39,918 nucleotides of DNA, taken from positions 1 through 39,918 of the IMG/VR virus record IMGVR_UViG_3300044974_000026; one strand, written 5' to 3'. Below, one piece after another: positions 11,930 to 33,642 of this stretch (its first letter is position 1; every line of letters begins with the position of its first letter). The translations under genes and the position numbers were made by a program. Source of the DNA: a virus. Below the pieces are notes generated by a model. The model worked only from the letters and a program-made list of their open reading frames with translations. It did no database searches and was not told where the DNA came from.

Positions 11930-12724
11930 ATGACAACAACTTTTGGAATGGAGTTTGAAATCCAAGGCTTGAACCCAAGCCGTGCAGCCTCCGTACTCAA
12001 CAACGCAGGCATCACATGCAGCGCAACCAACGCAACGCATGAAACCTCCGACAACTGGAAAGCCGTTTATGACGGCAGCGTTGGAAACGGCGCGGAGGTT
12101 GTATCCCCAATCCTTAACCCTGCCCGTTTAAACGAGGCTCACAAAGTCACCAAGGCGCTCAAAAACGCAGGCGCACGGGTAGACCGTGCCACGGGTTACC
12201 ATGTCCACATTGGCGTAAACGCCTTTGGCGAATGGGGAAACGGCGGAGAGGATAACCTCGCCCGTTTTGTTCTCAACTGGTACGCAGTACACGGCGCAAT
12301 CGCTGCACTGGTAGCGCCAAGCCGTTTAAACAATCGTTACTGTGCAATTCTTGACCGCCGATACGCGGAGGCTCAAGCCAATTTCACCGCCAATCAAAAC
12401 CGTGGCGCAATGAATGGCAACCGCTACACCTCGCTCAATCTTGAATCCATGCACCGCCACGGCACCGTTGAAATACGCCTACACCAAGGCACGCTAAACG
12501 GCGTTAAGGCAATCGCATGGGCGCAATTCGTGGCAAGCATGATTAATGCCAGCGTAAACGGCTCAGACCTAACAACGATTGACGAACTCAATCCATGGAG
12601 CCTTGGCACGCTGCCACAGGTTGAAACCTGCAAAACCCTGCTTGATGCGCTTGTTGTGACTGGCAATCTCAACTCAAGCACGGGCGACTGGCTCAAGAAC
12701 CGCGCCACCAGTTTAAACGGGTAG
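11930..12724 (+). CDS. Amidoligase-family enzyme (COOH-NH2 ligase, GCS/GS-like fold)
   Basis: 264 aa. Motifs in family order: FGMEFE at 5-10 (metal/ATP-binding Glu pair), Asp48 with Glu56 and SP at 59-60, His91 and His93 (GYHVHIGV), NRYTSLNL at 164-171, and GTVEIRLHQGTLN at 178-190. This pattern matches Amidoligase_2 enzymes (Pfam PF12224), glutamine-synthetase/gamma-glutamylcysteine-synthetase-like ligases that couple a carboxylate to an amine using ATP. Such genes in phages and bacteria are known to sit near glutamine amidotransferases, and here one lies 650 bases downstream (13375-14226). The substrate is unknown: peptidoglycan stem peptides, a host protein or a small molecule are all possible. 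It contains three GTTTAAAC sites, each read as Leu-Asn. Confidence 0.88.
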   Translation: MTTTFGMEFEIQGLNPSRAASVLNNAGITCSATNATHETSDNWKAVYDGSVGNGAEVVSPILNPARLNEAHKVTKALKNAGARVDRATGYHVHIGVNAFGEWGNGGEDNLARFVLNWYAVHGAIAALVAPSRLNNRYCAILDRRYAEAQANFTANQNRGAMNGNRYTSLNLESMHRHGTVEIRLHQGTLNGVKAIAWAQFVASMINASVNGSDLTTIDELNPWSLGTLPQVETCKTLLDALVVTGNLNSSTGDWLKNRATSLNG

Positions 12725-12730
12725 CAGGTA

Positions 12731-12784
12731 GCCCGCCCCTAGTGGGCGTGCGTGGGTGCAATCCCCACGGCGGGCACGAACGCC
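12731..12784 (+). ncRNA. Structured RNA candidate, tRNA T-arm/acceptor-like
   Basis: Between the amidoligase stop and the next start. GCCCGC/GTGGGC (12731-12736 with 12742-12747) forms one hairpin. GTGGG/CCCAC with the 7-base loop TGCAATC (12752-12768) forms a second that looks like a tRNA T-arm. GGCGGGC (12769-12775) can instead pair with GCCCGCC (12731-12737), giving an acceptor-like stem. A third option pairs GGCG and TGC (12745-12751) with GCA and CGCC (12774-12784). There is no anticodon arm and position 2 of the T-loop is G, so this is not a functional tRNA. It may be a leader RNA controlling the downstream gene. Confidence 0.4.
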
Positions 12785-12825
12785 ACGGAAAGCCCGTTGC
12801 GTTTAAACAGATAGGACTGGAAACC

Positions 12826-13158
12826 ATGTACGAACAACCAACAGCACGCGAGCAATTCGCCCGCGATTGCATGCTTGTACTAGAAAACACACGCCCCGCA
12901 TACGAACACATCATGAAGAAAGCCAAGCGTTTAAACGCTAACGGCGAACCAGCGAACACGAACACGCACGCGTTGGCTGAATTTATCCGCGACTATGTGG
13001 AGAACACCATCGGCTTCGCCGTTGACCCCAAGCACAAGGAATCGGGAACCGTAGGCGCGTTACTTATCGCCCAAATCTGCACGGGTTGGGGAATTAATCC
13101 CTTCTATGACATGGCGCAAGACTTCATGAAAGCAGCAGCAGAAAGCGTAGGTGTTTAA
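12826..13158 (+). CDS. Conserved-looking hypothetical protein, 110 aa
   Basis: I use the ATG at 12826 (MYEQPTAREQ); the frame is open further upstream, but that extension would translate the structured RNA element. The protein is soluble and mostly helical, with many charged residues and a hydrophobic Gly-rich segment near the end. Its TAA is formed by a GTTTAAAC site (13153). It lies between the amidoligase and glutamine amidotransferase genes. No family recognised. Confidence 0.65.
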   Translation: MYEQPTAREQFARDCMLVLENTRPAYEHIMKKAKRLNANGEPANTNTHALAEFIRDYVENTIGFAVDPKHKESGTVGALLIAQICTGWGINPFYDMAQDFMKAAAESVGV

Positions 13159-13160
13159 AC

Positions 13161-13238
13161 ATGGAATACCTCAACGGCTCCGCGCTCGTACTGATTGCGC
13201 TCCTAGTGTGGGCACTGTACAAGGTGCGCAACTCATGA
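13161..13238 (+). CDS. Single-pass membrane micropeptide, 25 aa
   Basis: MEYLNGSALVLIALLVWALY then a short basic tail. Nearly all of it is one transmembrane helix (about residues 7-20). The stop overlaps the next ATG (ATGA), and the start is two bases after the previous stop. The tight packing supports a real gene. It could anchor or regulate a neighbour at the membrane. Confidence 0.5.
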   Translation: MEYLNGSALVLIALLVWALYKVRNS

Positions 13239-13312
13239 GCAGCGAGCGTTTAAACGAACGCGTCATGTGCGGTGACTGCTTGCGACCCGATTGCAAGGGT
13301 TGCGAGCGCTAA
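13235..13312 (+). CDS. Cys-rich micropeptide, 25 aa
   Basis: Starts at the ATGA overlap with the membrane micropeptide. Four cysteines in the pattern CGDC-x4-C-x2-C fit a single zinc knuckle. It carries one GTTTAAAC site read as Arg-Leu-Asn. Function unknown; the start-stop overlap is the main support. Confidence 0.45.
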   Translation: MSSERLNERVMCGDCLRPDCKGCER

Positions 13313-13330
13313 CCGTGCATGTGATACACT
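13300..13330 (+). promoter_or_regulatory. Candidate promoter for the glutamine amidotransferase gene
   Basis: TTGCGA (13300-13305) and TACACT (13325-13330) with 19 bases between, about 45 bases before the ATG at 13375. The -10 is good; the spacing is slightly long. The -35 overlaps the end of the preceding micro-ORF. Confidence 0.35.
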
Positions 13331-13374
13331 TCACCCATTAACCAACCAACAACAACAGACTGGAGATACAAAAT

Positions 13375-14226
13375 ATGTGCGGAATCGCAGGCTATTGCCT
13401 AGACCCTAAGCATTACTCACGCATTACCACAAGCGACCTCGCAGGGCAGATGCTCTACGACATTGAACACCGTGGACAACACGCAACAGGCGCTGCATGG
13501 ATTAACCCACGCAACGGCAGGCGTGTCATTAGCAAAGCGCCAACCAGCGCCACAAAGTTCGTGCCCAAAGCAGGCTCACGCCTATGTGACGGCGCGACCA
13601 CTGCAATCTTGCACACACGATGGGCAACTCAAGGCTCACCGAGTATCGCAAGCAACAACCACCCAATCCCACGCGGTAAAATCGTACTCACACACAACGG
13701 ACACATCAGCAACGACACCGAATTGTTTAAACAACTAGGTGTTCCTCGCGTTGGTCAGGTTGATAGTGAGGCTGCTGCTGCACTGATTGCCTTCTCCGAT
13801 GGCAAGCCTTGGGAAATCCTGCCCGAACTCTATGGCACGGCAGCGCTCGCATGGATTACACAACACGACCCACGAACGCTACACCTAGCCCGTGTCAATT
13901 CCTCCCCGCTATGGCTCGCGCAAGCCAACACAGGCTCGTTGTTCTACGGCTCAACACAGGAAACCGTAGAGAACGCTGCAATCATGGCAGACTGCGAGAT
14001 TGACTGGCTACATGAAGCAGCAGAGGGCGAGTACTTCAAGGTGCGTGACGGTCATGTGACCGAGTATCAAACCTTCACGCCTCGCACCTACGAACGCACA
14101 AACTGGTGGAGCAGTTACAGCCAGCCTGCCTACGCAACCGAACTTGATTACTTGGGCAGATACAACCAACGCAAGGCGGAAAAGTACGCTCGTTGGTGGG
14201 AGGACAAAGACGAACTAGCCTTCTAA
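13375..14226 (+). CDS. Class II glutamine amidotransferase, stand-alone
   Basis: Releases ammonia from glutamine through an N-terminal nucleophile cysteine. 283 aa beginning MCGIAGYC, so Cys2 becomes the nucleophile after Met removal. LHTRWATQG, NNHPI, LTHNGHISN and DSEAAAALI are the conserved glutamine-site motifs shared with GlmS/PurF glutaminase domains. No synthase or transferase domain follows: the C-terminal 70 residues are Tyr/Trp/Arg-rich and unlike SIS or PRTase. It therefore probably feeds ammonia to a partner, the amidoligase at 11930-12724 being the obvious candidate. GGAG lies nine bases before the start. A terminator follows at 14242, so the module ends here. One GTTTAAAC is read as Phe-Lys. 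Confidence 0.92.
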   Translation: MCGIAGYCLDPKHYSRITTSDLAGQMLYDIEHRGQHATGAAWINPRNGRRVISKAPTSATKFVPKAGSRLCDGATTAILHTRWATQGSPSIASNNHPIPRGKIVLTHNGHISNDTELFKQLGVPRVGQVDSEAAAALIAFSDGKPWEILPELYGTAALAWITQHDPRTLHLARVNSSPLWLAQANTGSLFYGSTQETVENAAIMADCEIDWLHEAAEGEYFKVRDGHVTEYQTFTPRTYERTNWWSSYSQPAYATELDYLGRYNQRKAEKYARWWEDKDELAF

Positions 14227-24480: not shown

Positions 24481-26451
24481 TTATACGACAGTGCGTGCGG
24501 TTATCATTAAAATTCCACCGTAGCCTGAGAAGTTTCCAGATGGTGGGGTTGTGCGGGTGAAAGACACCTGCTCAATCACTGCTTCAATAGGTTCTCCATC
24601 AGCAGTGAAATCCTGAATGATTACGGTTTCGCCTTGTGCTTCCATCTGCTCCAGTGCTTGGAGTCTGCCGAGTGCGTAGCCCTGGAAACCCATGATGTTT
24701 TTATTGCGGTCACGCTCGGAGTCAAAACAAAAGACAGGGATTTGAATAACACGAGCGCGGGTAGGAGTAGGCAGAGCCTTAATAGAGTAACCGTAAATAA
24801 CAGCGCCAGTCGTGGCAGTTGTATCGTTACGATTGAGGCGGAATTTAAACTGCGCTTCAACTCCAACATCTTCAAAAACCGATGACAAGTCGTAGTCATA
24901 ATCAGTAGTACTCCCTTGTGCTACGGTACGGAAGGCTGTATCTACTCCGTTTTCTACACGGAAAATATCAATGTCACCTTGTAGCGTACCTTCAGTGCGT
25001 AGTTTTAAACGCTTCCATGCTTTGTTCTCAAGGGTTTCGTAACGAATAATACCTGTGGTTAGTTCACCTGATTCAACAAGTTCAGTGGCATGCTCAATAA
25101 ATAAACCGTCACCGTTTACACAGAAGGCAATTCTGCCATCACCTAAATTACAGACACCCTCTACCTTACCAGTAGTGGATTCTGCATAGACATCAGTAGC
25201 ATAGGCATACGCGCCATTTGATAAGGGTGATGATAAGTCAACACGGTATACGCCAGAGTATCCACCAACGCCAGAGTCAACACCAGCAATAATGAACTTG
25301 CTGTATGCGCTCATCTTGAATACACCCAAGTTGTTTTCAAATATAAGCGGTCCGTAAGAAAGGTCGCCAACTTCATTGGCTATTGCGATACGCAGACCTC
25401 TGCTTGTTCCTATGGCAACATAAGTTCCAAGGTAGCCAAGCAAACCAGTTACTTCTTCTCCACTTGGCAGCGTTACTACGCTAGTCATGGTATTTAAAGT
25501 TCCATCATTTGCAACAGTAATCTTGTAGACATTACCCTGCTCACCAGAGAATCCACCAACATAAATTGCTGCGCCACCTTCGGTTATAGCCCTGAAGGTA
25601 TAACCAGTTGGCATGGTGCTGCTGCCGTTTACTGGGGTAAGCGTGCTGAGGTTGATTGAGGAGCCAGAGTTTCTATTAATTTCATAGACAAATGTGTTTT
25701 TGTTTGTGTCATGAAACCCAAGCATGAAACGGTTTTTGACATAGGCAATAGTTGCTGTTTGTGCGTTTGCTGTATTGATTGCGTAGTCCTGATGTAGGGC
25801 AGGGGAGGTTTCATCAAATGAATATCTCCACACCTTAGTTGGCGTTACCATCATTAAGTCATTACCGCCCATGGCAACAGCAATGATGTTCTCAGTAATT
25901 GCAGAGTTGTTAATAATGGTTGTTTCTGAATAATCACTTACTCTGATTCTTAGGACACGGATTGTTTCCGTGGATGAATACTTAACTAATATCAGATACT
26001 CAATGCCACCAATGATGGTGTTAAATACACGGCTATCGCCAGTTACTGCCTCCTGTAGGAATGTTCTGCGAAGCAGAGAGATTCTTCCTGGAGTCCAAGG
26101 ATTGATGCCGACAGATGAACTAAAGCGAAAGCGTGCTTCCTCTAAGGTTCCAGTGATTGGCTCTTGGTATGTGCTGCCTGTTCCAAGGTGGAATGATGAC
26201 TGGCTGCGAATCCAGTAACCTGAACCTGAGAGTGACTGCTCACCTGGGTCGCGTAGTTGGTCTACACGCTGAGTACGAAACTCTGCAGTCTGACGGCGAT
26301 ACGGAGTATTGTCTGTAATCGCTGCAATGAAAGGCATGCCACCAATAGCAAAGTCATACTTGTATGTGGTTGGGTCGTAGTATGTGGAGATGCGACCCGA
26401 TAGGTCAATGATTACGCGTTCAGATATATCGGGCGGTCTGCTGTCTACCAT
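24481..26451 (-). CDS. Tail protein with beta-propeller-like repeats, 656 aa
   Basis: Long beta-rich protein, the last large gene before lysis. Residues about 150-450 contain repeated strand-turn units with glycine pairs (YVGGFSGEQGNVYKI, AIGTSRGLRIAI, IAGVDSGVGGYSGVYRV) that suggest a beta-propeller. The C-terminal 150 residues are a separate beta domain (FRVENG, VIQIPVFCFDSERDRNKN). Likely a minor tail or spike protein in host contact. The exact role is inferred from position. Confidence 0.7.
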   Translation of the reverse strand: MVDSRPPDISERVIIDLSGRISTYYDPTTYKYDFAIGGMPFIAAITDNTPYRRQTAEFRTQRVDQLRDPGEQSLSGSGYWIRSQSSFHLGTGSTYQEPITGTLEEARFRFSSSVGINPWTPGRISLLRRTFLQEAVTGDSRVFNTIIGGIEYLILVKYSSTETIRVLRIRVSDYSETTIINNSAITENIIAVAMGGNDLMMVTPTKVWRYSFDETSPALHQDYAINTANAQTATIAYVKNRFMLGFHDTNKNTFVYEINRNSGSSINLSTLTPVNGSSTMPTGYTFRAITEGGAAIYVGGFSGEQGNVYKITVANDGTLNTMTSVVTLPSGEEVTGLLGYLGTYVAIGTSRGLRIAIANEVGDLSYGPLIFENNLGVFKMSAYSKFIIAGVDSGVGGYSGVYRVDLSSPLSNGAYAYATDVYAESTTGKVEGVCNLGDGRIAFCVNGDGLFIEHATELVESGELTTGIIRYETLENKAWKRLKLRTEGTLQGDIDIFRVENGVDTAFRTVAQGSTTDYDYDLSSVFEDVGVEAQFKFRLNRNDTTATTGAVIYGYSIKALPTPTRARVIQIPVFCFDSERDRNKNIMGFQGYALGRLQALEQMEAQGETVIIQDFTADGEPIEAVIEQVSFTRTTPPSGNFSGYGGILMITARTVV

Positions 26452-26817: not shown

Positions 26818-27330
26818 TTATGAGTTCTTGATTCCGTAAAGGGTAGCGGTTGAATATTGGACAAAGGAACCATTGTTTAAGTCTAAAGTAATGCTTGTAA
26901 TTGCAGAACTTAATGATATTCTTCCAGCAGTAAAATTAACAATAGCAATAGTAACATTGTTTTCTTGTACTGCATCTACAGAATAACTTTTATTATTACT
27001 TGAAGTATAGTTTGAAATGTAATATTCAAGATTTCCAAAGGCAGATGCTGTTGCAGTAGAACCAGGAACATAATAATCCAAGTCATACGTTGTTGCGCTG
27101 TATACGGTATCTCCGTCAGCCCACGCTCTCCGTTTAGCATAGTTTCCAGATGTTGTGTTATTGTTAAAATATAACCAACCACTGTCAATAGTATTTGATG
27201 CTCTATCGCTACGCAAAGATGCTTTTATTGATAGGTCGGTATATGTTGCAGGAATATTGGTAAATTCAATAGTTCCTGAGCCGCTACTTCCAACTTCAAC
27301 AGTGGCTATTTTTGTATACGTAAAAGGCAT
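26818..27330 (-). CDS. Tail-tip/receptor-binding-type protein C
   Basis: 170 aa, all beta. One of three adjacent related proteins: FTNIPATYTDL near the start, NNNTTSGNYAKRRAW in the middle, a Tyr-rich strand (YYISNYTSS), a hydrophobic AITSITLDL and the end LYGIKNS. The shared plan suggests a jelly-roll-like carbohydrate-binding head. By eye it is poorer in GC than the rest of the window. It lacks the N-terminal LLVGN segment that gene A has. Confidence 0.65.
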   Translation of the reverse strand: MPFTYTKIATVEVGSSGSGTIEFTNIPATYTDLSIKASLRSDRASNTIDSGWLYFNNNTTSGNYAKRRAWADGDTVYSATTYDLDYYVPGSTATASAFGNLEYYISNYTSSNNKSYSVDAVQENNVTIAIVNFTAGRISLSSAITSITLDLNNGSFVQYSTATLYGIKNS

Positions 27331-27338
27331 AGTATCTC

Positions 27339-27848
27339 CTAAGCAGCAGTAATGCCGTAGAGTGATGCAGTTGAGCCTGCGATTATATTTCCACCATCGG
27401 AATAAAAAAAGTTAATAGATGTTATTGCGGAAGTTGAGCGCCATAAACCACCTATTGCATCAGTTGCATTACTGGCATTATTTGCTCTTGATAAAAATGT
27501 TTTATATGTTGTGCTGTTAGAATAATTTAATATTTGAACAACATAACTTATATTTCCTAATGTGGTAGAATTACTAGCACTGTAACTAATTCTTCCTACA
27601 GTTGCATTTGTATTCCTAGCAGATAATACTGAAGTACCATTACCGTATAAATAAGTGTTAGAATAATTACTTCCAGTATCAGAATTAAATCTAATCACAG
27701 ATTCACCGTTATAACCACTTGCTATGGCTGTATTTAAAACTAAAATTAAATCTGTGTAACTGCCACTAATGTTAGTAAAAGTAATACTAGAAGTAGCAGT
27801 AGTAAGTGTTGTGTTTGCTATTGTTTCGTATGTGACTCCTGCTGCCAT
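27339..27848 (-). CDS. Tail-tip/receptor-binding-type protein B
   Basis: 169 aa beta protein related to its two neighbours: ITFTNISGSYTDL, IRFNSDTGSNYSNTYLYGNG, a variable middle, GGLWRSTSAITSINFF and the ending LYGITAA. Asn/Ser/Thr-rich surface and low GC (parts near 30% by eye) fit a recently exchanged receptor-binding module. No LLVGN segment. Role inferred from position and sequence type. Confidence 0.65.
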   Translation of the reverse strand: MAAGVTYETIANTTLTTATSSITFTNISGSYTDLILVLNTAIASGYNGESVIRFNSDTGSNYSNTYLYGNGTSVLSARNTNATVGRISYSASNSTTLGNISYVVQILNYSNSTTYKTFLSRANNASNATDAIGGLWRSTSAITSINFFYSDGGNIIAGSTASLYGITAA

Positions 27849-27850
27849 AG

Positions 27851-28447
27851 TTATCCTTTTATTCCATATAAAGCAAAATGAGAATATTGTTGGAATTTTG
27901 TTGCTGCATAACCTTGGTTAAAAGTTATTTTTGTTACTGCTGCTGTATTTTGCCATATTCCTCCAACTAAACTTACTTGTCCAGTTCCATTTGCATCTAC
28001 TGCAGAAAAAAGTCTAGTAGTAGTTTTTTTGTTAGTGTTTGTATAATCTAGTATATCTATAACTAAAGCACCAAATATACTAGTCATACCAGTTCCACTG
28101 CCAGCAAATCGTTCAAGAATAATTCCAGCATCAAGATTTGTGTACGCTGAATCATAAGCGGTAGCACCATCGCCATAAAGTTCGTGGTCAAAATAATTAC
28201 CTAAGTTGGTGTCAGTATTAAAAGTAATATAAGGTGAGTTGAGGTCAGCATTTCTATCAGTTTTACCTAATACTCGCAACTGCAAATGAGTAAAAGTCTG
28301 AGGTATGTTATCAAATACCACAGTAGCGCTTCCACTGCTGTTGACAACTGTTGTAGCAATGGATTCAAATGATGGCGGCATATAGGCATCATTGCCCACC
28401 AACAGATTACCTCTGCGTAGTTTGTTCTTTATGCTGACTACAGCCAT
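27851..28447 (-). CDS. Tail-tip/receptor-binding-type protein A with LLVGN N-terminus
   Basis: 198 aa. The first 25 residues (KLRRGNLLVGNDAYMP) match the start of the two glycine-rich fibres upstream. The remainder shares the beta-domain plan of proteins B and C: FDNIPQTFTHLQL, ITFNTDTNLGNYFDHELYGDG, GGIWQNTAAVTKITF, ending LYGIKG. It thus joins the N-terminal tag of one family to the domain of another. The stop-start overlap with the gene before (TAATG) shows coupling. Confidence 0.7.
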   Translation of the reverse strand: MAVVSIKNKLRRGNLLVGNDAYMPPSFESIATTVVNSSGSATVVFDNIPQTFTHLQLRVLGKTDRNADLNSPYITFNTDTNLGNYFDHELYGDGATAYDSAYTNLDAGIILERFAGSGTGMTSIFGALVIDILDYTNTNKKTTTRLFSAVDANGTGQVSLVGGIWQNTAAVTKITFNQGYAATKFQQYSHFALYGIKG

Positions 28448-28809
28448 TAGGCTATTACCTCATCCCAAGATAGGGTTGCTTCATTCCAGGTGTACATCTT
28501 GCCATCAGTTGGGTAAGGAACTGGAGGCTGCCACTTAGCATCAGCATCTAGTGTCCACGAAGGGAATGGCTGAGGGGCATAGAAGTAATCATTGCTTGCA
28601 TCATAAGTATAACCAATGCCTGCATAGTTTTTACGGAAATTGCCATTGTAGGAAGTCTGCTTCCACTTGGTATCTTCACCAAAGAGTGACTTGCAGAACA
28701 AGATACCCTTGACTTCGCTTTCAACTCCGTCAAGTAGTAGTTCATCGTTGGCTACAACGATTACCTGTGTGACTATGTTGTTGTCGTCTAGTTGTGCAAA
28801 GTGTGCCAT
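28447..28809 (-). CDS. Conserved phage structural protein, 120 aa
   Basis: Begins MAHFAQLDDNNIVTQVIVV and contains FCKSLFGEDTKWKQTSYNG, FRKNYAGIGYTYD and PQPFPSWTLD, a pattern I recognise from proteins found in many aquatic phages, cyanophages included, usually next to tail fibres. Function not established; probably a virion or fibre-associated component. Mixed alpha/beta with many aromatics. Confidence 0.75.
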   Translation of the reverse strand: MAHFAQLDDNNIVTQVIVVANDELLLDGVESEVKGILFCKSLFGEDTKWKQTSYNGNFRKNYAGIGYTYDASNDYFYAPQPFPSWTLDADAKWQPPVPYPTDGKMYTWNEATLSWDEVIA

Positions 28810-28818
28810 TTTTCTCCT

Positions 28819-29712
28819 TTATGCTGCATATCTAACAATTACAATACCGCTACCACCATTGGCACCACCGCCGCCACCGTTACCTCCACCACCAGAACCG
28901 CCTCCAGTATTTATAGTTCCAGCAACTGCAGCAGAAGCGTTTAATCCACTATCTCCACCGCCACCAGTTCCACCTGTTGCTCTTGTTGTCGTAGAGTTTG
29001 GTCCTCCACCTCCACCACCAGCATAAGTCACAGAAGAACCAGAAATAGAAGATGAAGAGCCATTACCACCATTGCCACCAGTGCTTCCAGATGCAGCATT
29101 TCCAGTAGCACCCGCACCACCGCCTCCGCCGCCAGCAAAATTTCCAGCAGGACCAGCACCAGCACCACCACTATTACCTTCAGATGGGGAGTATCCACCT
29201 TCGTTTCCTGTACCTGCGGGGCGACCAGGTGGTTGTTCGGCTCCTGAGCCACCACCACCTGAGCCACCATTACCGCCAGGAACACCGTCTGGATAACTTT
29301 GATTACGCTCTCCACCATAACCGCCGCCAGTTGCAGTTATGCTTGAAAATACAGAATTACTTCCTTTATTTCCGCGAGTAAAGGTTGCTGGCGTTGAACC
29401 GCCTGCTCCTATGGTTACGGTATATCCAGTTCCAGAAGTAACAGATAATGCGGTTCCACCAACATTAGTCCTAAAACCACCACCACCACCGCCACCACCC
29501 GAACTGTATCCACCACTTCCACCACCTGCAACTACAAGATATTCAACAGATAAGTTTTCGCTAGGAGTAAAAGTTCCAGATGATGTAAAAGTATGAATCC
29601 AATAGCCACCAGAATAAGCAGTGGTTCCACCAGTTGCTTTAGGAGCAAATGCAGCATTACCAACAAGCAGGCTACGGCTGAAGGTTCCGTTCTTAAGACT
29701 TCTGATTGCCAT
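28819..29712 (-). CDS. Glycine-rich tail fibre protein 2
   Basis: 297 aa. N-terminus SLKNGTFSRSLLVGNAAFAP is shared with the upstream fibre and protein A. The rest is extremely glycine-rich (SGGGGGGGGF, SGGNGGNGS and similar), a composition known from phage tail adhesins that form polyglycine bundles, bind receptors and vary quickly. Ends with GSGIVIVRYA, a closing strand also seen in the neighbour. The one-base overlap (TAATG) links the pair. Confidence 0.75.
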   Translation of the reverse strand: MAIRSLKNGTFSRSLLVGNAAFAPKATGGTTAYSGGYWIHTFTSSGTFTPSENLSVEYLVVAGGGSGGYSSGGGGGGGGFRTNVGGTALSVTSGTGYTVTIGAGGSTPATFTRGNKGSNSVFSSITATGGGYGGERNQSYPDGVPGGNGGSGGGGSGAEQPPGRPAGTGNEGGYSPSEGNSGGAGAGPAGNFAGGGGGGAGATGNAASGSTGGNGGNGSSSSISGSSVTYAGGGGGGPNSTTTRATGGTGGGGDSGLNASAAVAGTINTGGGSGGGGNGGGGGANGGSGIVIVRYAA

Positions 29713-30680
29713 TAGAAAGTTATACTCCCTGTTCCAGTAAATACATAATAGGTGTATCCTCCACCTGTATTCCTTGTTGGAGAACCAGTTGTTGCTGAGG
29801 CAGTAACATCTCCAGAAATTCTGAAAATAACAATACCGCTACCGCCTGAACCACCAGTTGAGTTTCCAATATTACTTCCTGTTCCACCGCCTCCTCCGCC
29901 ACCTGTATTAGCGTCAGCATTAGAGCCATTATGAACTGAATTTCCTCCACCATCTCCACCGCCACCAAGTCCGCCAGTTCCTTTATTTTGTGTAGTCCTA
30001 CCACCAGCACCACCACCGCCACCAGCAAAATAATAGTTACCGCCTGATAGTTCACCAAAACCTGTTGTTGAACCGCCTGAAATTGCTGTATAAGAACCAT
30101 TGCCGCCGTTGCCGCCGTTATATGTTCCTGCACCACCTGTGCTTCCGTTGGCTCCAGCACCACCACCGCCACCACCACCAGAACCATTTACGGAATCGGT
30201 TACTGAGGCTGCTCCACTATTACCTTCTGCTGGACTATAACCACCTTGATTACCTGCCGCACCTGCTTGTGTTCCACCACCAGCACCTGAACCAGAACCA
30301 CCTGTGTTAGAAGTCCAATTGCTATTTGTTCCGTTGCTTTGACCGCCACCTGTGCAGGTAAAAGTTGTAAATCCTGTTCCTGCAATAGAACTGTTACTAC
30401 CTTTAGTTCCATTACCTTTAGCAGTTCCACCAGCCCCACCTGCACCAACTGTAATAGTGTAAGAAGTGCCAGCATTAAAAGTTTGTGAAGTGGCAGTTCT
30501 ATAACCACCCGCACCTCCACCGCCACCGCCAGTATCAGAGCCACTTTCAGAACTGCCAGCGCCTCCGCCTCCTGCAACAACTAAAAAATCAGCAGTTCCA
30601 GGAAAAGGTATATAAGCAGCATTACCTACAAGCAAACTAGACGGTGATACGGTACCTGTCTTGTAACTTGTGATTGACAT
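29712..30680 (-). CDS. Glycine-rich tail fibre protein 1
   Basis: 322 aa paralogue of fibre 2. N-terminus SYKTGTVSPSSLLVGNAAYIP, then FLVVAGGGGAG, Gly/Asn/Ser repeats and GSGIVIFRISGD near the end, followed by a 30-residue tail rich in Thr and Tyr. Likely a distal adhesin. Start and stop overlap both neighbours (TAATG). Confidence 0.75.
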   Translation of the reverse strand: MSITSYKTGTVSPSSLLVGNAAYIPFPGTADFLVVAGGGGAGSSESGSDTGGGGGGAGGYRTATSQTFNAGTSYTITVGAGGAGGTAKGNGTKGSNSSIAGTGFTTFTCTGGGQSNGTNSNWTSNTGGSGSGAGGGTQAGAAGNQGGYSPAEGNSGAASVTDSVNGSGGGGGGGAGANGSTGGAGTYNGGNGGNGSYTAISGGSTTGFGELSGGNYYFAGGGGGAGGRTTQNKGTGGLGGGGDGGGNSVHNGSNADANTGGGGGGGTGSNIGNSTGGSGGSGIVIFRISGDVTASATTGSPTRNTGGGYTYYVFTGTGSITF

Positions 30681-31015
30681 TAGGCGTTAGACTCATCTCC
30701 GAATGCCTGGAATGCAATGTTTGCAGTTGAGGCATAAACCTTGATAACATCGCTAGCAGCAAGGGTGATACCAACAGTAATGATTGTAGTATCAGATGCA
30801 CCTACTGTGATGTCATATCCGAAGTATTGCTTGTTTAGAATAGTTGCAGATACATCAGCAGCAGGCTGAATGATGATACGGAATGTAGCAGCAGTAGCAG
30901 TAAGGTTTGCTACAGAGATGCTAGATACTACCGCTTCCTTCGCAGAAGGAACGGTGTATAGGGTTGTTACAGTTGTCGCAGATGGGTTTGATTGCCCAAG
31001 GACTTTTTTAGCCAT
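30680..31015 (-). CDS. Small virion protein with beta sandwich-like pattern, 111 aa
   Basis: Begins MAKKVLGQSNPSATTVTTLY, followed by alternating beta strands (AVVSSISVANLTA, FRIIIQPAADV, YDITVGASDTTIITVGITL). This pattern occurs in small phage proteins next to fibres and may be a decoration or collar protein. AAGGAG precedes the ATG. I do not know its function. Confidence 0.7.
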   Translation of the reverse strand: MAKKVLGQSNPSATTVTTLYTVPSAKEAVVSSISVANLTATAATFRIIIQPAADVSATILNKQYFGYDITVGASDTTIITVGITLAASDVIKVYASTANIAFQAFGDESNA

Positions 31016-31030
31016 TTAGTTATTTCTCCT

Positions 31031-32740
31031 TTAAGCGCCCATCAGCATAAATACTGACGGTGTTGGGTCGGTTACGATTGCTGCCCACGAAGCGGTTGTT
31101 CCGTTCGTAGTCAAATACTTTCCTGAGTTGCCAGTCTGGCTAGGTAGCGCATCTACGCTAGCCCACGATGAGGTGGTTCCATTTGTGGTCAAATATTTTC
31201 CAGACTGACCAGCCTGAGCAGGAACTACATACGCACTTGCTGTATCTAGGTTAAGGGTTACCGCACCAGAGGTGCCACCACCTGTTAAGCCAGTTCCAGC
31301 AGTGACTGCTGTGATGTCACCAGTAGATGTAAATACCTGCCATGATGATGTGCTTCCATTCCAGACATACATGTTTCCATCTGTGGTGTTGTAATAAATA
31401 ACACCAGCAGTTAAAGGGTTTCCATCGTTGTCTGTGGTTGGGGCTGTTGCCTTTGGACCAAGATAACGGTCATCAAATGACTCCCAAGCAGTTTCTGCAG
31501 ATGTAGCACTTGTTGCTGCGCTGGCTGCAGATGTGGCTGCTGCAGTGGCACTTGCTGCTGCGGAGGTAGCGGATGTCGCTGCTGCCGTAGCAGAGGCTGC
31601 TGCAGAGGTTGCTGAGGTAGCAGCAGCAGTAGCAGATGCACTTGCGCTGGAAGCCTGAGCGATTGCAATGGATGCTGCACTGTCTGCGCTTGTCGCACTT
31701 GTTGCTGCTGCAGTTGCGCTGGCAGCAGCACTGGTTGCTGATGTGGCAGCAGCCGTTGCACTATTTGCAGCACTGGTTGCAGAAGTTGCAGCAGCAGTGG
31801 CACTTGTCGCAGCCGATGATGCTGATGTTGCAGCAGCACTTGCTGATGTAGCAGATGCGCTTGCACTGGCTGCAGCGCTTGTAGCACTGGTTGCTGCAGC
31901 AGTAGCGCTCGCAGCAGCGCTTGTTGCGCTAGTAGCAGCAGCCGTGGCTGAGGCAGCAGCCGAAGTAGCAGAGGTGGCTGCAGCGCTGGCAGATGATGCC
32001 GAAGCAGTGGCGCTGTTAGCAGATGCTGTTGCACTGTTTGCTGCAGATGTTGCACTGGTAGCAGCAGCAGTAGCGCTGGCTGCAGCAGAGGCAGCCGATG
32101 TTGCTGCTGCTGTTGCTGAACCAAGAATACTATCTACATAATTCTTTGGTGTTGCAGATGAGTCAACCATTCCAGCGCTGGATAGACCAGTGATTACTGG
32201 AGAGCCAGAGATGGTTGGGCTTACGAATGTAGCGCTAGAGGCTGTAAAAGAACCTGTGAATGTACCGCTTGAATAAACTTTATTGGTAAGGGTCTGAGCC
32301 TTAGTCGTACCAACAACCGCGCCATCACCAGAGGCAATACCGTGAACATGTGTTTGTCCAGCAGCCACAAGGATTGCTTGGTCAATATCGTAACCACGGG
32401 CTGCAATGTGATTCTGTGATTCACGGAAGTCACGACCCGATACACCGTGACGAACTACTGCACCAGCAGAGTGTGCTACGCCTTGGGTATTGTCAGCGCC
32501 ACGAGTTACTGTAAGGGTTGTGCTACTACCAGAGGTAACTGTGACAACTTCTTCTTTAGAGGTATCTGGGTCAACAATAAGCGTGTATGGATAATCTGTT
32601 GGGAATCCACTGATGGATGCCACAATGAATGATGTGTTGCTTGCCCCTTGTGCCTGTGCGGGGATGGATGACTGGAGCGAGGTTTCTACTGCGGTTGAGG
32701 AGTAGTACCGCGCTGGTGAGCCTGGGTCGCCTGCTGCCAT
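31031..32740 (-). CDS. Long tail fibre with Ala/Ser/Thr coiled repeat
   Basis: 569 aa. The N-terminal 200 residues are a beta domain that should attach to the tail (GDPGSPARYYSSTAVETSL; DPDTSKEEVVTV). Residues about 207-416 are Ala, Ser, Thr and Asn in a 14-residue period (two heptads), expected to form a trimeric coiled coil. AWESFDDRYLGPK and PTTDNDGNPLTAGVIYYNT, common in phage fibres, follow the repeat. The end has two copies of SGKYLTTNGTT with SWA. It is the main fibre and should support the smaller fibres encoded after it. Confidence 0.85.
   Translation of the reverse strand: MAAGDPGSPARYYSSTAVETSLQSSIPAQAQGASNTSFIVASISGFPTDYPYTLIVDPDTSKEEVVTVTSGSSTTLTVTRGADNTQGVAHSAGAVVRHGVSGRDFRESQNHIAARGYDIDQAILVAAGQTHVHGIASGDGAVVGTTKAQTLTNKVYSSGTFTGSFTASSATFVSPTISGSPVITGLSSAGMVDSSATPKNYVDSILGSATAAATSAASAAASATAAATSATSAANSATASANSATASASSASAAATSATSAAASATAAATSATSAAASATAAATSATSAAASASASATSASAAATSASSAATSATAAATSATSAANSATAAATSATSAAASATAAATSATSADSAASIAIAQASSASASATAAATSATSAAASATAAATSATSAAASATAAATSAASAATSATSAETAWESFDDRYLGPKATAPTTDNDGNPLTAGVIYYNTTDGNMYVWNGSTSSWQVFTSTGDITAVTAGTGLTGGGTSGAVTLNLDTASAYVVPAQAGQSGKYLTTNGTTSSWASVDALPSQTGNSGKYLTTNGTTASWAAIVTDPTPSVFMLMGA
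31490..32120 (-). repeat. 42-bp-period repeat encoding coiled coil
   Basis: Degenerate repeat of about 15 units of 42 bases giving units such as ATSATSAAASATAA. Third positions vary between units (GCA/GCT/GCC/GCG), so the protein pattern is better kept than the DNA. Open frames on the other strand here are shadows of the repeat. Confidence 0.8.
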
Positions 32741-32748
32741 TTTCTACC

Positions 32749-33642
32749 TTATCTCTGATAGTGCGAACGGATTGGATATTGACGGCGTTGGTTATTCGCC
32801 ACTTCGTTTAAACGCTGTTGATAAATGTTGTACAAGAATCTGGAGGCGTTCTGACCTGAACCATTTGGTCGCACGCCATCAAGAATGTCTGCTGCTGCAG
32901 ACTGAGGACCAAGGCGTGAAGGGTCCAAGAATGAAATCATGCGGAAGGCTGCGCCATAGATGACAACATCCTCCGAATATGATGGAAAGCCTGTTACTGT
33001 TTCGTACTCTTGATTGTCGCTAGTAAGCAGCGTTGGGCGCTTGCTATAGGTGACATGTACGGTTTGTCCAGGAACAATCTCTGAGTAAACAGATAGGCTC
33101 TTTGTGGTGCTAAAAGCATCTGAGTCTGCAGTTCTATCTAACTGCCATGCACGGGCAGGGAACCACTCCTTGGAAGGACCCACGATGGAGTAGGTAACTG
33201 ATAGAACATTCTGTACTGCAGCAGGAATCTGGTATGAGTATTGTGCTGCTACATAATCAAAGTCATAAGTACCTACGGCAAATATGCTTGGGTACATAGA
33301 GTCAATGGTGTTGTTAATAGCGTTCTTAATTTCTTGCCGTGGGAACAGTGGACCCATAATCACTTTAGCATCTTGGTTATGAGAAGCAGCACTTGTTCCA
33401 CGCTGCGCTCTACCCCATGGGGCAAGCGTTAAAGTGTTAGCCACATTGTCTGTTGAGTTAACAAATACGATTTCATCATCAATCTGTACATAACCACGAC
33501 CAATGACCGAAGCATCGTAAACACTTAAGGTAGTTGCTGTGCTAGTGGCGTTGCTAACTAGCCATGTTGCTGGCTCTGTATTCTCTGTATAGCCATGCAG
33601 TACAGCCTCAACGCGGTCTGCTAGTTGGGCAAATGTACTCAT
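32749..33642 (-). CDS. Head-tail adaptor / tail-tube-like protein, 297 aa
   Basis: Starts MSTFAQLADRVEAVLHG. A first beta domain (LSVYDASVIGRGYVQIDDEIVFV) carries the RG-Y-QIDDE-V motif known from phage adaptor proteins. A helical middle (NAINNTIDSMYPSIFAV) and a beta domain with VVIYGAAFRMISFLDPSR follow, and the end is basic. Such proteins join portal to tail in short-tailed phages. ATGA overlap with the gene before. One GTTTAAAC (Leu-Asn). Confidence 0.75.
   Translation of the reverse strand: MSTFAQLADRVEAVLHGYTENTEPATWLVSNATSTATTLSVYDASVIGRGYVQIDDEIVFVNSTDNVANTLTLAPWGRAQRGTSAASHNQDAKVIMGPLFPRQEIKNAINNTIDSMYPSIFAVGTYDFDYVAAQYSYQIPAAVQNVLSVTYSIVGPSKEWFPARAWQLDRTADSDAFSTTKSLSVYSEIVPGQTVHVTYSKRPTLLTSDNQEYETVTGFPSYSEDVVIYGAAFRMISFLDPSRLGPQSAAADILDGVRPNGSGQNASRFLYNIYQQRLNEVANNQRRQYPIRSHYQR

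Follow-up and report, generated by a model that had tools for sequence, protein, structure and literature searches.

The locus and its three tagged genes

The DNA considered here, hereafter the window, is the whole of the 39,918-base IMG/VR record IMGVR_UViG_3300044974_000026, which by its gene content (terminase, portal, major head protein [PF13252/phrog_1357], adaptor and fibre) comes from a tailed phage. Its minus strand carries three genes, starting at 30680, 29712 and 28447, whose products of 322, 297 and 198 amino acids (aa) open with one motif, M-x3-S-x-K-x7/8-LLVGN-x2-[YF]-x-P, and then diverge; the common N-terminus is called the tag below, and the remainder the head. The preliminary description of this DNA, which had reported three proteins with an N-terminal LLVGN peptide in common, two with glycine-rich heads and one with a beta head, holds in these particulars: the open reading frames (ORFs) lie on the minus strand where it put them, two heads score 78.2 and 46.8 bits against a cut-off of 24.3 for Gly_rich_2 (PF21722), and the third is modelled as a beta sandwich.

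IMG/VR was scanned with alignments of the three kinds of tag, which confirmed 55, 53 and 48 loci, short of the scan maximum of 80 in each case. When every ORF in the fetched loci was searched with a hidden Markov model (HMM) of the tag, 506 matches at E<1e-3 resulted, overlapping loci being counted separately; these reduce to 176 distinct proteins, and 10 further matches were weaker. Fewer than 60 residues of open frame lie upstream of the tag in 501 of the 506. The 176 proteins fall into 73 groups of loci, those with an identical tagged protein in common being placed together (near-identical contigs may count apart or together). Two copies of the window, L001 and L002, were excluded, and all counts by tag type or head use the 173 tagged proteins of 73 representative loci at E<1e-3, without the weaker tags. 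As had been surmised, the tag is joined to other domains in other phages: glycine-rich, beta and rarer large heads are found among the 176. The representative loci have three tagged genes in 43 groups, two in 16 and one in 14, and in the 36 groups that have both the 111-aa and the 656-aa genes found on either side in the window (Table 1) these numbers are 29, 6 and 1, with no group having more. TAATG stands at the start of 130 of the 173 genes, which suggests that most of them overlap the stop codon of the gene before; the heads end in SITF or SITY in 61 of 173 cases and in GIKG or IKGA in 28.

Chance was considered as the source of the likeness and ruled out by the N-terminal HMM matches and by the distribution of L[LV][VAI]GN: of 82 occurrences in the ORFs of 87 related loci and the window, 80 are the tag, and the other 2 lie in L072. 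A widespread protein motif was likewise ruled out, for type 1 of the three tag types defined below. The type 1 alignment confirmed none of 29 candidate stretches in a collection of 84,980 bacterial and archaeal species genomes (GTDB), and the type 1 consensus occurred in 2 of 50,697 named phage records, both of them ct2KA10, the same kind of phage, in a 24-residue tblastn search that is insensitive and missed the tag-like start MSIRSLSRST of Pontimonas phage phiPsal1 (MG835450). These results agree with the earlier expectation that the tag would be conserved in relatives and not found in unrelated proteins. In phiPsal1, a cultured relative with a laboratory host, this peptide begins an unannotated 298-aa glycine-rich ORF with a TTG start (L243, 5858-6754), located between homologues of the 111-aa gene and of a 120-aa gene of the window; the annotated phiPsal1_022 and phiPsal1_023 occupy another frame of the same DNA.

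Three address types and one of each per phage

The tag had been described as fixed, and this stands for the junction only. On the alignments, the tag is a variable address (residues 1-14/15), which differs regularly and falls into three types, followed by a common [LM]LVGN junction. The three address patterns are M[ST][IV][ST]S.KTG.., MA[IV][RK]S.K[NT]G.FSRS and MA[VC].SIKNK... Identity across the first 15 columns is 72% when tags of the same type are compared between phages, against 44% for tags of different types within one phage; the LLVGN part is equally conserved in the two comparisons (83% and 85%) and does not separate the types. Of the 173 tags, 170 share their type with the closest tag found outside their own group.

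The types, numbered 0, 1 and 2, are distributed by a simple rule. Sorted by three profiles with leave-one-array-out assignment, the tags of 41 of 42 three-tag arrays comprise one of each type; types 0 and 1 are in reverse gene order in 10 arrays, 9 of which belong to the 41. Both tags differ in type in all 16 two-tag arrays, which brings the arrays with different types per phage to 57 of 58 multi-tag arrays, counts that are inflated by kinship among the phages. Same-type pairs would be expected from duplication, yet there is at most one phage with two tags of one type, L059, and that case is itself ambiguous.

The codons of the tag bear on what is being conserved. Invariant residues are written with several synonymous codons, five or six in the case of the leucine at position 16, and selection therefore acts on the tag peptide. 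An alternative is that the tag serves mainly as a DNA anchor, the LLVGN codons providing 5' homology for the shuffling of heads, and that the peptide has no docking role; it gains from the observations that the homology of exchanged heads (described below) starts at the LLVGN codons and that some tag codons are fixed, R4 in slot 2 being AGA in 45 of 45. We nevertheless regard it as very unlikely: synonymous codons vary, the residues before LLVGN are conserved by type even though they lie outside the homology of exchanged heads, and nothing at the DNA level explains why the tags of a phage differ in type. Some tag positions are less codon-diverse than the codon usage of the heads predicts, and the tag DNA may have an added role in recombination.

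Heads exchanged at the junction

The head behind the type 2 tag of locus L239 and the head behind the type 0 tag of L238 are 90.6% identical in DNA from nucleotide (nt) 52 to nt 849 of 849. This homology begins at the GN codons of LLVGN and ends exactly at the stop codon; the tags and the downstream flanks are unrelated. Since the same head is found behind two tags, with homology running from the GN codons to the stop codon, this comparison of sequences shows that heads are exchangeable between phages and between addresses, and together with the type statistics it gives substance to the idea of a cassette system put forward in the preliminary description. An identity of at least 70% across most of the head is found in four cross-type pairs, whose alignments all begin at nt 46-52, and in seven same-type pairs, of which six are aligned from nt 1 onward and L133/L239 from nt 70. 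Among Blastn alignments of at least 300 nt, those starting at nt 1-15 account for 91 of 156 same-type pairs versus 9 of 143 cross-type pairs, and 37 of the 143 cross-type alignments start at nt 37-63, that is, at the junction. The window itself is included in this pattern, its type 1 head (the 297-aa protein) being 69% identical over 600 nt, from inside the tag, to a type 0 head of L103.

The kinds of head, classed by glycine content and length, are not fixed to the type. Behind type 0 there are 49 glycine-rich heads, 6 beta and 1 other; behind type 1, 50, 8 and 2; and behind type 2, 21, 33 and 3. Ordinary duplication, giving three paralogues with a common N-terminus and no modular exchange, would account for tag types that are clearly alike (44% within a phage) and for two window heads in one Pfam family. 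To this we give almost no credence, with unrelated kinds of head behind type 2 alone and nearly identical heads behind different tags in L239 and L238: duplication is contradicted by the exchange of heads and can apply only to the origin of the tag types. As for known diversity-generating devices, no reverse transcriptase gene of a diversity-generating retroelement and no shufflon invertase gene was seen among the scanned window proteins, a scan that covered the ORFs in part and did not search repeats.

What the heads resemble is less definite. The third window head, in the 198-aa protein, matched no Pfam or PHROGs family. Its model is a beta sandwich with a predicted local distance difference test score (pLDDT) of 84, and its structural matches are rich in galectins and legume lectins, the best with Z 7.7 (root mean square deviation [rmsd] 4.5, 124 aligned); because all Z scores are below 8, "lectin-like" is to be taken as a lead. 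A further structure search with this head gave a best E-value of 6.7e-4, with template modelling scores of only 0.26-0.31. Sequence searches of the PDB with the heads gave nothing convincing, the glycine-rich heads yielding a weak unrelated match (E 0.22). Among the rare heads, some look Asp-box-like, Kelch-like or LamG-like by eye. A Laminin-G identity for the rare head of L172 was rejected, Laminin_G_3 scoring 18.7 bits against a Pfam cut-off of 27.6.

Neighbouring genes and candidate partners

The gene order of the module is adaptor, fibre, 111-aa gene, tagged genes (with a 120-aa gene among or after them) and 656-aa gene (Table 1). The genome is mostly minus-strand; genes of an Amidoligase_2 protein and of one with a glutamine amidotransferase domain, both on the plus strand, lie at 11930-14226 of the window.

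Table 1. Features of the module and its edges in the window, in positions of the 39,918-base record
Feature	Position	Strand	Remarks
297-aa adaptor-like protein, upstream module edge	32749..33642	-	SU10_adaptor 1.4e-6; phrog_7578
569-aa alanine-repeat fibre	31031..32740	-	phrog_38058 tail fiber, 3.8e-158
Fibre C-terminal peptide DPTPSVFMLMGA, candidate plug into 111-aa hub	31034..31069	-	kept in relatives
111-aa jelly-roll protein, candidate hub	30680..31015	-	directly before first tagged gene
First tagged protein, 322 aa, MSITSYKTGTVSPSSLLVGNAAYIP	29712..30680	-	type 0 tag, glycine-rich head; Gly_rich_2 4.9e-12, phrog_2295
Type 0 address peptide and LLVGN junction	30621..30680	-	residues 1-20 of 322-aa protein
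Second tagged protein, 297 aa, MAIRSLKNGTFSRSLLVGNAAFAP	28819..29712	-	type 1 tag, glycine-rich head; Gly_rich_2 1.2e-21
Type 1 address peptide and LLVGN junction	29656..29712	-	residues 1-19 of 297-aa tagged protein
120-aa protein, phrog_7759, function unknown	28447..28809	-	conserved among tagged genes; rival tag partner or chaperone
Third tagged protein, 198 aa, MAVVSIKNKLRRGNLLVGNDAYMP	27851..28447	-	type 2 tag, lectin-like beta-sandwich head; AlphaFold pLDDT 84
Type 2 address peptide and LLVGN junction	28391..28447	-	residues 1-19 of 198-aa protein
169-aa beta protein without tag	27339..27848	-	likeness to head of third tagged protein, by eye
170-aa beta protein without tag	26818..27330	-	likeness by eye
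656-aa protein, phrog_11667, downstream module edge	24481..26451	-	PHROGs match

A conserved gene for a jelly-roll protein of 108-111 aa stands immediately before the tagged genes: in 61 of the 64 groups having it, its stop codon and the start of the first tagged gene are -1 to +5 nt apart, one of the 61 being L096, where that stop ends a fused ORF. The model of the window's 111-aa protein (pLDDT 92.8) is an eight-stranded beta sandwich, which we read as a jelly roll. Among the predicted viral structures of BFVD, some small proteins consist of this fold alone, and "tail fiber-like" proteins of 380 and 504 aa include it as one part. With VIA-align, the list of matches is led by plant HDT2, presumably a nucleoplasmin-like fold (Z 10.1, rmsd 2.5, 94 aligned), and includes tail proteins (KP1 baseplate cup, Z 8.4; lambda tail tip, Z 7.6); no T4gp10 entry is among the matches listed, an absence that does not exclude such a likeness.

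The same list raises the possibility that the heads decorate the capsid and not the tail, the jelly roll being a cement or turret protein that docks the tags. It contains the KHP40 trimeric cement protein (Z 9.3, rmsd 2.8, 101 aligned), the HFTV1 turret (Z 9.3, rmsd 2.9, 96 aligned) and a Pam1 capsid chain (Z 7.5, rmsd 2.8, 94 aligned), although unrelated proteins tie with the two scores of 9.3. Because the matches mix HDT2, capsid and tail proteins, the fold says little about the place of the 111-aa protein in the virion, and a capsid location seems to us improbable in view of the order adaptor, fibre, 111-aa gene, heads and of the fibre-like proteins among the BFVD matches.

The fibre offers a second candidate contact. 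Of the 64 groups with the 111-aa gene, 56 have an ORF within 60 nt upstream of it. In 53 of these the product of that ORF ends in the near-invariant [FL][ML][LF]MG[AGS], mostly DPTPSVFMLMGA, while ranging in length from 178 to 779 aa. In phiPsal1, a short protein upstream of the 111-aa homologue ends in LMLMGG.

A proposed model of addressed adhesin heads

We propose that each of the three genes encodes an exchangeable adhesin head whose N-terminal address peptide would fasten it, probably in trimeric form, to a site of its own on a small hub of the virion. The hub would most likely be the 111-aa jelly-roll protein, which in turn would probably hold the C-terminal ...DPTPSVFMLMGA of the 569-aa fibre; in favour of this hub are its in-frame fusion to a head in L096 (see below), the fibre-like BFVD proteins that contain its fold and the recurrent end of the proteins encoded upstream of it. 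Because the address and the junction are brief and do not vary, a newly acquired head would be fitted to the virion at once wherever it came to lie behind LLVGN, and recombination at the junction and the stop codon could therefore move whole heads between phages and addresses. We put the probability of this reading at roughly 0.68. The conserved tag, its three types with one of each per phage, the sharply bounded exchange of heads and the synteny with the 111-aa gene are established by the sequences. Docking of the head onto the virion by the tag is likely on the basis of the neighbouring genes, and the identity of the hub, the trimeric state and the binding of receptors by the heads are proposals as well.

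Several observations weigh against this proposal, in whole or in part. The exchange of heads is not free: of the 108 heads with a BLASTP match, 65 had their best one in a head of the same type, versus 47.2 +/- 6.0 expected under free mixing within a head class (p 0.001). This excess may be due in part to vertical descent, and by these comparisons type constrains heads far less than it does tags. The tail as the site of the module is inferred from gene order. In the model of the 198-aa protein, the tag part has a pLDDT of only about 70, and head-like beta proteins without a tag are found in the operon (window 27339-27848 and 26818-27330; several in L144), so the tag is not required for every such protein. 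On contig 3300008110_002905 (L192, from 4317), one of the 6 two-tag groups that have both the 111-aa and the 656-aa genes, the second and third tagged proteins form one 573-aa ORF in which the type 2 tag is internal; as both lie in one open frame, a stop codon may have been lost, or there may be a sequencing error. At the fibre end, 3 of the 56 upstream proteins do not have an MLMGA-type end. The fusion in L096 (3698-4828), where the 111-aa domain continues in frame into a glycine-rich head lacking the tag, speaks for the hub but comes from a single contig; its junction occurs in no other IMG/VR contig, and the fusion could be natural or an assembly join.

The remaining difficulty is the 120-aa gene, which is present in 54 of the 73 groups (many contigs are cut short) and adjoins the tagged genes in them. 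Across 38 phages, distances between tags correlate with those of the 111-aa protein at r=0.73 and with those of the 120-aa protein at r=0.64, so that the 111-aa protein is not singled out; in the 23 phages with all genes in the fetched stretch, the partial correlations with the adaptor included are -0.06 for the 111-aa protein and 0.69 for the 120-aa protein, and the latter's correlation is 0.78 in one subgroup of 11. From such data, covariation leaves the choice of tag partner between the two undecided, the 120-aa protein being a serious rival, and the fibre is a further candidate. They would suit an explanation in which the tag is an assembly or chaperone signal, its address read by the 120-aa protein (phrog_7759) in folding or delivery and not used as a structural dock, and a dedicated chaperone of a glycine-rich fibre is on record (gp25 of Pam3; PMC9608196, in excerpt). 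We consider this explanation unlikely, if the strongest of the competitors. Relatives of the 120-aa family occur in 41 INPHARED records, cyanophages, pelagiphages, roseophages and Methylophilales phages among them, versus 2 with the tag, so the family is widespread in phages in which no such tag was found; the 111-aa protein correlates with the tag at least as well across the 38 phages; and a chaperone alone leaves three different addresses per phage unexplained.

The proposal of docked, addressed heads can be carried further, though only tentatively and at rather less than even odds. The three types may be orthogonal, each with its own site on one hub, in which case every virion would have a defined set of three heads, perhaps with each type present once on a hub, and the set could be edited one position at a time through LLVGN. 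Together with the MLMGA plug of the fibre, the whole would be a chain of replaceable parts joined by terminal peptides only, and unrelated tags such as the GxW[ST]L...WP tag described below would be the same design with other keys.

The host range of a phage is set by its receptor-binding proteins, and how new ones are gained without breaking assembly is an open question. Here uncultured water-dwelling phages have up to three putative adhesins each, apparently with heads swapped like interchangeable tools, and the boundary of exchange is readable at single-codon resolution in phages without a cultured host. The one-of-each-address rule predicts a multi-headed hub. If docking is true, the three peptides would be small modular connectors, and in metagenomes the tags could point to receptor-binding proteins whose heads belong to no recognisable family, as is the case for the third head of the window.

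Comparison with known systems

In the phages K1-5 and K1E of Escherichia and SP6 of Salmonella, two tailspikes with N-terminal hepta- or undecapeptides are docked to an adapter with a T4gp10-like domain (PMC6872550, here and below in excerpt). Like these phages, the window phage would have more than one receptor-binding protein per virion, each with a very short and distinct N-terminal peptide that attaches it to a separate small protein (its docking here being our inference) and with a variable remainder. The differences are that there are three addresses here and two there, that their heads are tailspike enzymes, and that their hub is T4gp10-like, the candidate here being a jelly roll; moreover, the excerpted description includes no common junction motif with transfer of heads between addresses. 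In the Klebsiella KP32viruses, a conserved 29-aa peptide of the second receptor-binding protein docks to the T4gp10-like domain of the first (PMC6872550), and a short conserved N-terminus, a hypervariable rest and horizontal transfer of receptor-binding protein genes are features in common with the present system, according to the same excerpt; in contrast, KP32viruses have one tagged receptor-binding protein and no three-type set. Short conserved N-terminal peptides with a variable rest, by which receptor-binding proteins of this class are recognised, are found here in three peptide types, on heads whose binding to receptors is presumed.

Other systems resemble the heads more than the tags. 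The gp24 fibre of Pam3 has a beta domain and then a glycine-rich part, and docks by an N-terminal alpha-helical domain with gp25 as chaperone, and the gp38 adhesins of T-even phages and S16 have glycine-rich loops (PMC9608196 and work cited there, in excerpt). The likeness is that of glycine-rich distal receptor-binding domains, drawn from published descriptions and not from homology; unlike the tagged heads, gp24 is a single adhesin with an alpha-helical dock. The metaviromic islands of marine phages, known from read recruitment, include variable C-termini of fibres and C1q-like proteins (PMC3909814, in excerpt), and like the present system they belong to aquatic phages and join a constant N-terminus to a C-terminus that varies and serves host recognition. 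In the excerpted account, the constant part of the islands is a T7-like N-terminal domain and not a short address on several genes.

A second N-terminal tag, approximately R..GG.I....PT..SA.G[VI]W[ST]L.E.Q......WP, was found in 12 loci, including Phage DSL-LC04, of a 50-locus set that also underlies the observations on L144 and that includes L247 (with an LLVGN tag) and L144 (with a weak one). The 12 are L091 (3347-5032, 6287-10384), L042, L046, L063, L064, L074, L078, L080, L082, L083, L084 and L086. Like the LLVGN tag, it is a short N-terminus common to glycine-rich, laminin-G-like and other heads, in phages with the 120-aa gene; unlike the LLVGN tag, it is an unrelated peptide and occurs in at most two genes per locus in the loci seen. 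The comparison suggests that aquatic phages make general use of a peptide-tag design, with keys that differ between them.

No description of the LLVGN tag was recognised in a literature search whose coverage leaves out most subscription journals. Since short docking peptides are known from K1-5, SP6 and KP32, the LLVGN system is best regarded as a variant of a known principle; what is new here is the peptide family, the set of three types, the common junction with visible transfer of heads between addresses, the candidate jelly-roll hub and the group of phages in which these are found.

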